The notes below the pieces were generated by a model that ran no database searches, was not told where the DNA came from, and was given only the letters and a program-made list of their open reading frames with translations. From Bacteroidetes bacterium 2013_40CM_41_45 (lineage in GTDB: Bacteria; Bacteroidota; Bacteroidia; AKYH767-A; 2013-40CM-41-45): DNA of 64,000 bases. The translations under genes and the position numbers were made by a program. This document shows, in pieces, positions 39,835 through 44,201 of this stretch (its first letter is position 1; each line of letters begins with the position of its first letter). The DNA is taken from contig NGFH01000011.1 in assembly GCA_002215675.1 (NCBI GenBank), positions 248,001 through 312,000 on the forward strand, given 5' to 3'.

Positions 39835-40740
39835 ATGAAAAGAAAAATAAGTTTAATCATCGCTGCCATGGCAATAATGATGACAAAAGTTTTTGCGGGA
39901 ACCATTCATGTGGTTGCAACAACACAGGATTTGAAAAGCATCGCTGAGTTTATTGGCGGAAACAAAGTGGATGTGTTTGGCATTGCCACCGGGTATCAGA
40001 ATCCACACTTTGTAGACCCCAAGCCGAGTTATATCATCAAACTTTCTAATGCCGATGTATTTATAACCGTTGGTTTGGATTTGGAAACCGGATGGTCGCC
40101 TCCTCTGCTGGCGAGTTCGCGTAATCCGAAAATTCAGAAAGGCAATGCCGGGTATGTCGATGCATCCATCGGGGTTCAGCTCATGCAGGTTCCGTCAAGC
40201 ATCAACAGGGGAGAAGGCGATATTCATATCTACGGCAACCCTCATTATTGGCTGGACCCGCTGAACGGAAAGCAAATTGCAAGAAATATCTGTGACGGGC
40301 TGGAACGGATTTCTCCTGAGAACAAATTTTTTTTTGAAGCAAACCTGAAAACTTTTAACGAAACCATTGATACAAAATTGAAAACATGGAATGCACAAAT
40401 GGCAAAATACAAGGGGTCGAAAATCATTGCTTATCATAACGAATGGTGCTATTTTGAAAACCGTTTTGGTTTGCAGGTTGTAGATTTCCTTGAACCCAAA
40501 CCGGGCATTCCGCCAACTCCGTCACAGCTTGTAAAAATTATCGGTGAAGTGAAAGACAATCATATTAAGGTGATTATTTCTTCTCCGTATTTTACCACCT
40601 CTTCTTCTGATGTTGTTGCAAAACAAACCGGGGCAAAAGTGCTGACGCTTGCAACTTCTGCAGGTGCATTCGATTCTGTGAAAACGTATTTTGATGTATT
40701 TGATTACAACATCCATCAACTAACCAATGCATTGCAGTAG
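39835..40740 (+). CDS. Metal ABC transporter substrate-binding protein (ZnuA/TroA type)
   Basis: 301 residues with a signal peptide (LIIAAMAIMMTKVFA). Cluster 9 binding-protein features are VVATTQDLKSIAEFIGG, the first His ligand in NPHFVDPKPS, the second in GNPHYWLDP and the third in YHNEWCYFENRFGL. The fourth ligand position (Asp/Glu in characterised Zn/Mn proteins) is unclear: the usual E.PQ segment reads SSPYFTT. There is no His-rich loop. It should capture Zn(II) or Mn(II) in the periplasm and pass it to the permease encoded next. No ATPase gene is in the window. Confidence 0.88.
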   Translation: MKRKISLIIAAMAIMMTKVFAGTIHVVATTQDLKSIAEFIGGNKVDVFGIATGYQNPHFVDPKPSYIIKLSNADVFITVGLDLETGWSPPLLASSRNPKIQKGNAGYVDASIGVQLMQVPSSINRGEGDIHIYGNPHYWLDPLNGKQIARNICDGLERISPENKFFFEANLKTFNETIDTKLKTWNAQMAKYKGSKIIAYHNEWCYFENRFGLQVVDFLEPKPGIPPTPSQLVKIIGEVKDNHIKVIISSPYFTTSSSDVVAKQTGAKVLTLATSAGAFDSVKTYFDVFDYNIHQLTNALQ

Positions 40741-40769
40741 CAGCTATTTGCTTTTAACAATCCGCAACG

Positions 40770-40797
40770 AACTCTAAACCTCAAATTCTAAACTTCT
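40770..40797. repeat. AAC heptad arm before the permease gene
   Basis: AAC (AAT at the third position) begins at 40770, 40777, 40784 and 40791, exactly seven apart, ending six bases before the permease ATG. Confidence 0.6.
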
Positions 40798-40803
40798 CTC
40801 TTT

Positions 40804-41634
40804 ATGTTCCAGATGTTTCAACTCGACTTCATAACCCAGGCATTTATGGTCAGTGTAATTGTCGGTATTGTCCTCTCTTATCTCGGTGTTCACGTGGTGG
40901 GAAGAGGAATTGTTTTCGTTGATCTCGCCCTCGGACAGATTTCTTCGCTCGGTGTCGCCTTCTCCGATTATGTGGGCTATGGGAAAACTTCTATTCCTAT
41001 TTTGTTTGCGCTGCTGGGGGCATTCCTTATGTCGTTCATCAACATCCGCGACCGGAGGTTGAAGCTGGAGGCCATCATCGGAATTATTTACGCTGTTGCT
41101 TCTGCCGCAACGGTGATGCTGATTTCAAAAACTCCTCATGGCGATTCGGATATCCAGGAAGTGTTGTTTGGAAATATTTTATCGGTGAGCATGGAACAAA
41201 TTAAATTGATTGGAGCAGTACTCGGGGCAATTGCCCTGCTGCATATCCTGTTTCATAAAAAGTTTTTTGCGCTCACGGAAAGTTTTGAGAAAAAAGAAAA
41301 TCACGCCATCGGGATTTTTAATCTATGGAATTTTCTTTTTTACATCTCCATCGGGCTGAGCATTGTGTTTGCTGTTCGGATCAGTGGTGTGATTCCTGTG
41401 TTTTCGTTTCTCATTATTCCGGCGGTTGCCGCCCTCATGCTGGCGAAAAAAAATATTTCGGTGGTACTTCTTGCTGCGCTGCTCAGTGTGCTCGGTGCGT
41501 TATTCGGATTATTCGTTTCTTACAAATATGATTTTCCTGCCGGCTCTTCAATTGTAGCAGTGCTAGGAGGCGTCTTTTTGCTTGTATCGCTATATTATAT
41601 TTTTAAAACTATTTTTAAGAAAATGCAATCCTGA
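40804..41634 (+). CDS. Metal ABC transporter permease (ABC-3 / ZnuB type)
   Basis: 276 residues with seven or eight transmembrane helices. Family features are AFMVSVIVGIVLSYLGVHVV, FVDLALGQISSLGVAFS (the coupling-type loop), EVLFGNILSV and the C-terminal GVIPVFSFLIIPAVAALMLA. It forms the membrane channel for the binding protein encoded 63 bases upstream. The ATP-binding subunit needed for import is not encoded nearby on either strand, so it must be supplied elsewhere or the importer works atypically. Confidence 0.92.
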   Translation: MFQMFQLDFITQAFMVSVIVGIVLSYLGVHVVGRGIVFVDLALGQISSLGVAFSDYVGYGKTSIPILFALLGAFLMSFINIRDRRLKLEAIIGIIYAVASAATVMLISKTPHGDSDIQEVLFGNILSVSMEQIKLIGAVLGAIALLHILFHKKFFALTESFEKKENHAIGIFNLWNFLFYISIGLSIVFAVRISGVIPVFSFLIIPAVAALMLAKKNISVVLLAALLSVLGALFGLFVSYKYDFPAGSSIVAVLGGVFLLVSLYYIFKTIFKKMQS

Positions 41635-41745: not shown

Positions 41746-41753
41746 TATCTTTG
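41746..41753 (+). promoter_or_regulatory. -7 element of the b561/YceI/diiron unit
   Basis: TATCTTTG (TAnnTTTG). It starts a transcript whose leader would contain the hairpin at 41767-41799. Confidence 0.5.
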
Positions 41754-41766
41754 TATATAGAATCCG

Positions 41767-41799
41767 GACCCCTGAAGGGTGTTTAACTCTTTAGGGGTC
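41767..41799 (+). promoter_or_regulatory. Leader hairpin upstream of the b561-like gene
   Basis: GACCCCTGAAG (41767-41777) pairs with CTTTAGGGGTC (41789-41799), with one G-T wobble, around an 11-base loop. It ends ten bases before the ATG at 41810 and has no T-tail, so it could affect ribosome access or RNA stability. The CCCCT/AGGGG core resembles the dispersed repeats at 8755 and 54509. Confidence 0.55.
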
Positions 41800-41809
41800 G
41801 CTTATCATT

Positions 41810-42439
41810 ATGAAAACCACGCAGAAATTTTTTATCGTATTTGCCATGCTGCTGATTTTCTCCAATGGTGTAAAAGCGCAAGTTGATAGCTTGCTGCTGG
41901 GCGTTGAAGAATCACCGCAACAGCTTCTGCCCGAAAAAATGGGATTTGTAAAAAAAGCTTTCTGGGGAGAGCATGGCCTGATGCGCACATTAAAAATTTC
42001 GCCTCTTACTCCCGAAGGCAGGCAAAAGGAGTTGCGGGTAAGACGCACTATGCTCAAGATGCATCAGTTCCTGGGAATTGTTACCGTGGCAGCGATGGGT
42101 ACGACAATTTATTTCGGACAGCAAATTAAAAGCGGCCATTATGAGTACGTGCATAAGATGGATGTATTCGGTGTGACAACGGCAGGCCTTTATGGAACCA
42201 CAGCGCTGCTGCAATTGCTTGCACCTCCGCCTTTGATTATCCGGAAGGATAAGGGAGGATGGAGCTCTATCAGGGTTCACAAAACGCTTGCCTATGTTCA
42301 CCTGACAGCCATGATAGCCACCGCTAGTTTTGGCCGTTACCTGGCCACACATAACTATGATTTGATAACAGTTCACCAGGTTTCGGCTTATGTTGCTACC
42401 GCTTCGCTTGCTGGCGCGATGATTGTTATGATTTTTTAA
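41810..42439 (+). CDS. Cytochrome b561-like membrane protein
   Basis: 209 residues. A signal-like first segment (FFIVFAMLLIFSNGVKAQ) and a soluble stretch precede four transmembrane helices at about 84-104, 118-138, 155-175 and 188-209. Conserved His residues lie in or near the helices: His85 (MHQFLG), His157 and His164 (VHKTLAYVHL) and His189 (VHQVSAY), the arrangement expected for haem b in the b561 fold. FWGEHGLMRTL and SPLTPEGRQKELRVRRTML look conserved. It begins an operon with YceI, as in E. coli where yceJ (b561) precedes yceI. Haem binding is inferred. Confidence 0.75.
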   Translation: MKTTQKFFIVFAMLLIFSNGVKAQVDSLLLGVEESPQQLLPEKMGFVKKAFWGEHGLMRTLKISPLTPEGRQKELRVRRTMLKMHQFLGIVTVAAMGTTIYFGQQIKSGHYEYVHKMDVFGVTTAGLYGTTALLQLLAPPPLIIRKDKGGWSSIRVHKTLAYVHLTAMIATASFGRYLATHNYDLITVHQVSAYVATASLAGAMIVMIF

Positions 42440-42449
42440 ATTTAATGCA

Positions 42450-42998
42450 ATGAAAAAAGTTATCCAACTCAGCTTGCTCCTTGTGGTAGCAGCAAACATT
42501 TCTTTTGTTCTCAAAGGAAAAATTATTTCTGCCGATAAAACCATCTCGTCAATTCAATACACGGTGAAACATCCTTTTCATGATGCAACGGCTGTCTCTG
42601 ATAATTTTGTTTGCAACATTGATTACAATTCAGAGACAAAGCAGATTGATAAAGTTGCTGTATCGGCAAAGATGTCTTCGTTTGACAGCAAAAATTCAAA
42701 TCGCGATTCGAATGCGATGGAAGCTGTGGAAGCAGTTAAATATCCTACCGTAAAATTTATAAGCAGCTCTGTTAATTCCTCTTCAGGGAAGCTGGATATA
42801 AAAGGCAATCTGACCTTTCACGGTATTACTAAAGAAATAAATTTTAACGGGGAACAGAAGACAGAGGGAAATAAGCTCACAGTGACCGGCTCGTTCCCGA
42901 TAAGTTTGGACGCTTACAAAGTAGAACGCCCCAGCTTGCTCGGAATGAAAATAGATGATGAAATGATTGTAGAGTTTAAAGCAGTGTTTAATATTTAG
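42450..42998 (+). CDS. YceI-family lipid/isoprenoid-binding protein
   Basis: 182 residues with an N-terminal signal segment (LSLLLVVAANISFVL). YceI features are SIQYTVKHPFHDATA, MSSFDSKNSNRDSNAMEAVEA, KYPTVKFIS, LDIKGNLTFHGITKEINF and TGSFPISLDAYKVERPSL. The family forms a lipocalin-like barrel; a Thermus member (TT1927b) was crystallised with a polyisoprenoid. It is probably periplasmic. It starts ten bases after the b561-like gene and is followed by the diiron gene, supporting a shared redox or lipid role. Confidence 0.92.
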   Translation: MKKVIQLSLLLVVAANISFVLKGKIISADKTISSIQYTVKHPFHDATAVSDNFVCNIDYNSETKQIDKVAVSAKMSSFDSKNSNRDSNAMEAVEAVKYPTVKFISSSVNSSSGKLDIKGNLTFHGITKEINFNGEQKTEGNKLTVTGSFPISLDAYKVERPSLLGMKIDDEMIVEFKAVFNI

Positions 42999-43015
42999 TC
43001 AAAAGTTTATCTGAA

Positions 43016-43648
43016 ATGCAATCATTACGTAGACGCTTCAATGACTTGCTCGTGTCAGTATATCTTTATAATGAATATACAGGATACAAAGAGCTGGAAC
43101 GGCTCATCAACTCCATTAAAATAAAATTCCCTGGAGAAAACGAATTTATCAGGGCGGTGGAAAAACATTGTGATGACGAGCGAAAGCATTATCTGATGTT
43201 CAGAAATTATTTTAAAAAAAACGACCGCATGCCTTTTAAAATTGGCCCTGCTTTCGGTTATGTTGATTTATTTATCAATCACATTTTCAAAAAGAATATC
43301 CAGAACCTTGACAGGGAAGAAATCCTGGGGAGTGATGTGCTTTTCTTCAAGCTCTGCCGCCTGGTGATGATGACCGAATTCAGAGGCATGAAGCAAGTGC
43401 ATAATTTATTACAGATGGACATCATAAAAAAAAACCCGGAACTCAATAAAATTTTCAGGGTGATTGAACGAGATGAACCTTCGCATTGTTATCCTTATCA
43501 GTACTGGTTAAAAAAATATCGCAGTCATTTGCCGCAATTCCAGGAAAAAATAACGGACCTGTGGATACATTACTCGTTGACGCTGATAAAAATTCCTTTT
43601 TTGTTTTTTAACTTCAGGTTATCGAGGATGAATGAATTTTATGCCTGA
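43016..43648 (+). CDS. Ferritin-like diiron four-helix protein
   Basis: 210 residues, helical, no signal peptide. The diiron ligand pattern E...ExxH...E...ExxH is visible: Glu20 (YNEYTG), Glu55xxHis58 (DDERKHY), Glu121 (TEFRGM) and Glu154xxHis157 (DEPSHC). The spacing fits a ferritin-like carboxylate diiron bundle; COQ7/AurF-type hydroxylases share the scaffold. A hydrophobic stretch near the C-terminus (LIKIPFLFFNF) could associate with the membrane. It is 17 bases after YceI and overlaps the next gene by 17 bases. The reaction is unknown; metal binding is strongly suggested but not proven. Confidence 0.72.
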   Translation: MQSLRRRFNDLLVSVYLYNEYTGYKELERLINSIKIKFPGENEFIRAVEKHCDDERKHYLMFRNYFKKNDRMPFKIGPAFGYVDLFINHIFKKNIQNLDREEILGSDVLFFKLCRLVMMTEFRGMKQVHNLLQMDIIKKNPELNKIFRVIERDEPSHCYPYQYWLKKYRSHLPQFQEKITDLWIHYSLTLIKIPFLFFNFRLSRMNEFYA

Positions 43649-44201
43649 AAAGAACCGGATGAAAAATATTTTTAATAACCTGATAAAAATAACGGCTTGG
43701 CTTACAGGCGCTGTGTTTTTCTTTTTACTCGTTGTCTATAATGCGATTTCTTTTTTTGCAAATGGATTCAGAAGATTATTTAAATGGAAAGGATTATATA
43801 ATTTCAGGGAGGAAGAATTTCAGGCTTTGAACGTTATTTATGATACAAAAAAAAATATCCCGATAGGAGCATTGCCAACCGCCAGGGGAAAAACTTCGGC
43901 ATATTATATTCCTCTTAATGCCAAAGAAATATTGCTTGAATTTAAGTTCGCTCCTTCTTCTGATTCATGCGTTGAATTGGATTATTGTTTGTCCGGAAAT
44001 GATTCAGCGAGCAGAAAAGAATACGTCTATATTTTTATGAACCCTTTTTCTGATTCTTTGAATCTTAATTATGATAAGGCATTGGTATGGTATCCCTTGC
44101 CCGAAGACCATATTTTAAAAGTTCAGTTCGCTGATATAAAACCGGTTGCTGATGCTTTAAAAAATATAGAAGGACATTTGAATGTTGTACAAGTCAGGTA
44201 G
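43632..44201 (+). CDS. Unknown membrane-anchored protein of the b561/YceI/diiron unit
   Basis: 189 residues from ATG 43632; ATGs at 43641 and 43659 are possible starts. One transmembrane helix near the N-terminus (LTGAVFFFLLVVYNAISFF) is followed by a soluble domain of about 140 residues with beta-rich segments (SAYYIPLNAKEILLEFKFAP, LDYCLSGNDSAS, EYVYIFMNPFSDSLNL). I recognise no family. It overlaps the diiron gene by 17 bases and ends the operon. Such tight coupling suggests a functional partner, perhaps a periplasmic domain facing the YceI protein. Confidence 0.75.
   Translation: MNFMPEKNRMKNIFNNLIKITAWLTGAVFFFLLVVYNAISFFANGFRRLFKWKGLYNFREEEFQALNVIYDTKKNIPIGALPTARGKTSAYYIPLNAKEILLEFKFAPSSDSCVELDYCLSGNDSASRKEYVYIFMNPFSDSLNLNYDKALVWYPLPEDHILKVQFADIKPVADALKNIEGHLNVVQVR

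Follow-up and report, generated by a model that had tools for sequence, protein, structure and literature searches.

A Bacteroidota cytochrome b561-YceI gene pair with a Rieske protein as its usual partner, and a probably separate diiron module beside it

The best studied pairing of a membrane cytochrome with a YceI protein is LcoA-BcnA of Burkholderia cenocepacia. Mutants in lcoA and bcnA have raised membrane lipid peroxidation (PMC9113575). YceI proteins hold isoprenoids, often ubiquinone-8, and it was suggested by the authors that LcoA, a predicted cytochrome b561, re-reduces the YceI-bound quinone (PMC9113575). A second relevant pair is yceJ-yceI of E. coli. The repair and prevention of envelope lipid peroxidation in bacteria, and the function of YceI proteins in general, are largely open questions.

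A locus with a similar beginning is found in the window, which here means the whole stretch of 64,000 nucleotides that was analysed. As in lcoA-bcnA, the gene for a b561-type membrane cytochrome lies directly upstream of a YceI gene. However, the locus continues with two further genes. Its features are as follows.

41746-41753, + strand: TATCTTTG box, matching the Bacteroidota -7 box; weak evidence alone
41767-41799, + strand: 5'-leader hairpin with a 14-bp stem, ending 10 bp ahead of the gene 1 start
41810-42439, + strand: gene 1, divergent cytochrome b561-like ORF
42450-42998, + strand: gene 2, YceI family ORF; periplasmic, lipocalin-like, predicted to bind isoprenoid or quinone
43016-43648, + strand: gene 3, ferritin-like diiron protein ORF of a rare, patchily distributed family
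43641-44201 (ORF from 43632), + strand: gene 4, single-pass membrane protein of no known family

Gaps of 10 bp (genes 1/2) and 17 bp (genes 2/3) separate the first three genes. An earlier, sequence-only reading had described this packing of four ORFs on the + strand correctly, apart from the last junction, where it gave an overlap of 17 bp. The overlap is 8 bp if gene 4 starts at 43641 (MPEKN...). This is the most likely start, because a homologue in a Rhodothermaceae MAG (L007) begins at the matching point and there, too, the overlap with gene 3 is 8 bp. How should the four genes be divided? The reading preferred here, and one that we consider fairly probable, is that two modules lie side by side: an antioxidant-type pair (genes 1 and 2) and an independent unit (genes 3 and 4).

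The identity of gene 2 is clear. It belongs to the YceI family (PF04264, 6e-19, 69.3 bits against a curated cut-off of 23.7), and its nearest solved structures are E. coli YceI (1y0g), a secreted protein of Helicobacter pylori (3hpe) and Pseudomonas PA0423 (7bwl). Its ligand would be a quinone or isoprenoid. Gene 1 is much harder to place. Its protein starts with a signal peptide and a conserved periplasmic segment, is predicted to cross the membrane in four helices, and matches no Pfam family, the b561 families PF01292 and PF03188 included. This is one difference from LcoA. One clue comes from its relatives: one of them (L040) passes the cut-off of the eukaryotic b561 family PF03188 (24.9 against 23 bits), and 12 of 21 family members match the prokaryotic b561 family PF01292 weakly, below threshold. 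A second clue is given by a profile comparison: residues 81-199, in a profile built from 28 relatives, could be aligned with a small profile of YceJ at a modest P of 0.0048, against 0.05 and 0.13 for two unrelated membrane proteins. The alignment is collinear, and H85, H114, H157 and H189 of gene 1 superpose on YceJ histidines. Judged by these alignments, the gene 1 product is probably a cytochrome b561, though a highly divergent one, and it matches E. coli YceJ from end to end. Gene order is also the same as in yceJ-yceI. The b561-like and YceI assignments of the sequence-only reading, and its comparison with the E. coli pair, all hold. The similarity to YceJ is nevertheless very low, and gene 1 adds the signal peptide, the conserved N-terminal segment and an invariant histidine, H164, that has no YceJ equivalent. 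The subfamily mostly escapes the current Pfam models; in one public record that was checked, it is annotated as hypothetical.

The histidines of gene 1 (residues 85, 114, 157, 164 and 189) include residues in the predicted helices, and most are strictly kept. H85, H157 and H164 are present in 37 of 37 gene 1 proteins and H189 in 36. However, H114, the expected fourth ligand, is present in 28 and absent from nine. The protein is probably a di-haem, four-helix protein of the inner membrane, with haem binding predicted from its residues, and its haem ligand set may differ from that of an ordinary b561. One genome carries a second gene 1 copy (L068, 5965-6636) that has no YceI neighbour and has neither H114 nor H189. 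This is the single protein without H189, and the simultaneous loss of H114 fits the idea that the two residues serve one site. Such a copy offers a natural experiment on the second haem site. The two halves of gene 1 resemble each other, with a two-helix unit as the repeat (shuffle z = 8.3 for the window protein and above 3 in 22 of 28), and the score, set against a shuffle control that preserves composition alone, is suggestive of a real internal repeat. An AlphaFold model made from the single sequence was too poor for placing ligands (pLDDT 47), and a PDB sequence search with the gene 1 profile returned no match.

The neighbourhood of gene 1 bears on the division into two modules. In a phylum sample of 395 genomes, 32 have gene 1, the window's own included. 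YceI is adjacent and on the same strand in 33 of the 34 gene 1 loci outside the window, and a Rieske gene is adjacent in 28, although some of these loci end early at contig ends. Two further loci, on a Fibrella plasmid (L088) and in an Ignavibacteriales MAG (L090), have both. This brings the totals over 36 other loci to 35 with YceI and 30 with the gene for a small exported Rieske [2Fe-2S] protein. When neighbours within 6 kb were clustered, gene 1, YceI and Rieske (18, 18 and 13 genera) were the only clusters to reach more than four genera. The Rieske gene is upstream of gene 1 in most loci and downstream of YceI in four (L065, L066, L067 and L069), so the linkage survives rearrangement. Rieske, and not the diiron gene 3, is the usual third partner of genes 1 and 2.

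The sequence-only reading had missed this partner because the Rieske gene lies elsewhere in the window's genome. A single one was found there, on another contig (C2; G000:C2:263728-263919; L087, 5549-5956), apart from genes 1 and 2. It encodes a short exported protein of the same subfamily as the cassette proteins (7e-39). The cassette Rieske proteins all retain the CxH...CxxH cluster ligands, and TAT or lipobox signals are common among them. On the Fibrella plasmid (CP155472.1, 1-10919), the order Rieske-gene 1-YceI is followed by genes for Dps, catalase and heavy-metal efflux, an oxidative-stress setting.

What might such a set of proteins do? The most likely job of genes 1 and 2 would be that of a Bacteroidota version of YceJ-YceI and LcoA-BcnA. 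The inner-membrane b561 would exchange electrons with the quinone or isoprenoid that the periplasmic YceI protein carries, and the exported Rieske protein, encoded alongside in most relatives, would be the likely one-electron relay. Kept reduced in this way, the YceI-held quinone could quench the peroxyl radicals of envelope lipids. The direction of electron flow, the quinone ligand and the role against peroxyl radicals are all argued by analogy with the described pairs. Most Bacteroidota use menaquinone, and a ubiquinone-type antioxidant role may therefore not carry over.

A different use of the same parts is conceivable. Genes 1 and 2 with Rieske might form a quinol-oxidising or quinone-trafficking chain that serves respiration or periplasmic enzymes and has no antioxidant function. 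The Rieske protein would then take electrons from the cytochrome while YceI delivers or extracts quinone. The frequency of the Rieske neighbour and its intact cluster ligands suit this proposal, and YceI modules also occur linked to cytochromes in Cbp2D/E, which have been proposed to donate electrons to LPMOs (PMC8981238, PMC12542752). However, only about half of the cassette proteins have retained the disulfide cysteines that are typical of the high-potential Rieske proteins of bc1, and the phenotype of LcoA-BcnA is one of peroxidation. We regard such a chain as unlikely.

Returning to the antioxidant reading of genes 1 and 2, a broader proposal can be put forward tentatively, with rather less than even confidence. 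A Rieske ferredoxin, a di-haem b561 and a YceI quinone carrier may together make a three-part envelope chain in many Bacteroidota lineages, one that regenerates a quinone antioxidant in the periplasm or carries quinone electrons across this compartment. This would be an undescribed extension of LcoA-BcnA, from which the relatives of the window pair differ in that many add Rieske, while the window adds genes 3 and 4. The text of PMC9113575 does not mention Rieske, ferritin or Bacteroid*. No paper that treats YceI, b561 and Rieske together was found in the literature searched, and a search for YceI with Rieske gave unrelated papers only. The Rieske-b561-YceI cassette thus appears to be undescribed in that literature. 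The Rieske partner is a concrete electron-transfer component that is not mentioned in the proteobacterial study, and it opens the direction of electron flow to experiment.

Where does this leave genes 3 and 4? The sequence-only reading had proposed a single redox system of all four genes: the b561 would supply electrons to a diiron enzyme for hydroxylation of the isoprenoid or quinone on YceI. The tight packing and shared strand in the window are in keeping with this, as is the conservation of the gene 3 diiron ligands. A lack of co-occurrence in other genomes had been named beforehand as a refutation, and this is what was observed for the four-gene set: not one of the 34 other loci has gene 3 or 4 within 6 kb of gene 1. 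The separation is also seen from the other side. Gene 1 is missing from four of the five other genomes with gene 3, among them that of the Rhodothermaceae MAG in which genes 3 and 4 occur together, and in the fifth a complete Rieske-b561-YceI cassette sits on a separate contig. Moreover, gene 3 is probably cytoplasmic, because hydropathy reveals neither a signal peptide nor a transmembrane segment, whereas YceI is periplasmic. The four-gene system is largely refuted by the absent co-occurrence and must be considered very improbable, and transfer of b561 electrons to the diiron enzyme is unsupported. Nevertheless, since only 17 bp separate genes 2 and 3, all four genes are probably transcribed together in this genome, and the two modules may be functionally linked locally.

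The distribution of gene 3 points to a history of its own. Homologues were found in Rhodothermaceae, KSB1, Ignavibacteriales and a Sphingomonas plasmid. None was found in the other genomes of its own class that were sampled family-wide, and in the phylum sample gene 3 occurs in two other genomes, one with a decayed copy. The decayed copy, in a Stygiobacter MAG (L010, 8001-8324; L012), has several stop codons and is followed by the apparent start of gene 4. The plasmid homologue (L005, NZ_CP117413.1) has a chemotaxis gene on one side and an IS256 transposase on the other, and genes for cytochrome bd and metal efflux are close by. Glyoxalase genes occur beside gene 3 both in the window and in L011, but they are not similar and were rejected as a shared neighbour. 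No gene 3 was found in phages. Identities of 60-68% across distant groups, together with the patchy spread, suggest horizontal transfer, and genes 3 and 4 have probably spread in this way. They are best described as an independent diiron protein with a membrane partner, and their function would be separate from that of genes 1 and 2.

The motif that drew attention to gene 3, E...ExxH...E...ExxH, is well founded. The ligand set E20, E55xxH58, E121 and E154xxH157 does not vary among five homologues, although identity falls as low as 39-41%. Gene 4, likewise as first described, has one transmembrane segment (residues 14-32) and belongs to no known family. Beyond this, placing gene 3 is difficult. 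Rubrerythrin and DUF455 match weakly over the ExxH blocks, all below the gathering scores, and a profile comparison with one DUF455 protein found nothing. One candidate relative is MiaE (PF06175), a tRNA-modifying diiron monooxygenase. In a profile alignment the last three motif blocks of gene 3, with their ExxH...E...ExxH spacing, superpose on those of MiaE (local P = 0.017), and chains of MiaE and aldehyde-deformylating oxygenase lead the Foldseek list. Perhaps, then, genes 3 and 4 encode a diiron oxygenase similar or related to MiaE, with RNA or lipid at the membrane as its substrate. This idea concerns the second module only and is compatible with the antioxidant reading of the first. However, the best Foldseek E is 0.78, obtained with an all-helical AlphaFold model from four sequences whose mean pLDDT of 53.6 is too poor for placing ligands. 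In addition, gene 3 does not match PF06175 or pass any other Pfam cut-off, a PDB sequence search with its profile found no match, unlike MiaE it is linked to a membrane protein, and the window's genome already has a true MiaE homologue. A MiaE-like activity is possible but somewhat doubtful.

The region ahead of gene 1 was also considered. The TATCTTTG box that had been read as a -7 promoter is present, but the window contains 52 copies of TANNTTTG, where chance alone predicts 68. It is not over-represented, and the TATCTTTG motif alone is therefore weak evidence of a promoter. The leader hairpin is confirmed and strong: folding of 41760-41815 gave -25.4 kcal/mol (z = -5.07). It is possible that this is a regulatory element. 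Two explanations were rejected: an Rfam riboswitch, as no family scores above cut-off, and a genomic repeat, as no second copy was found in the window or the genome. Nor is it shared by three relatives: in L054 gene 1 is preceded by an unrelated hairpin, and L006 and L057 have none of note. Directly upstream, at 39835-41634 and with no adjoining ATPase gene among ORFs of at least 70 aa, are genes for a zinc/manganese-type ABC substrate-binding protein and an ABC-3 permease.
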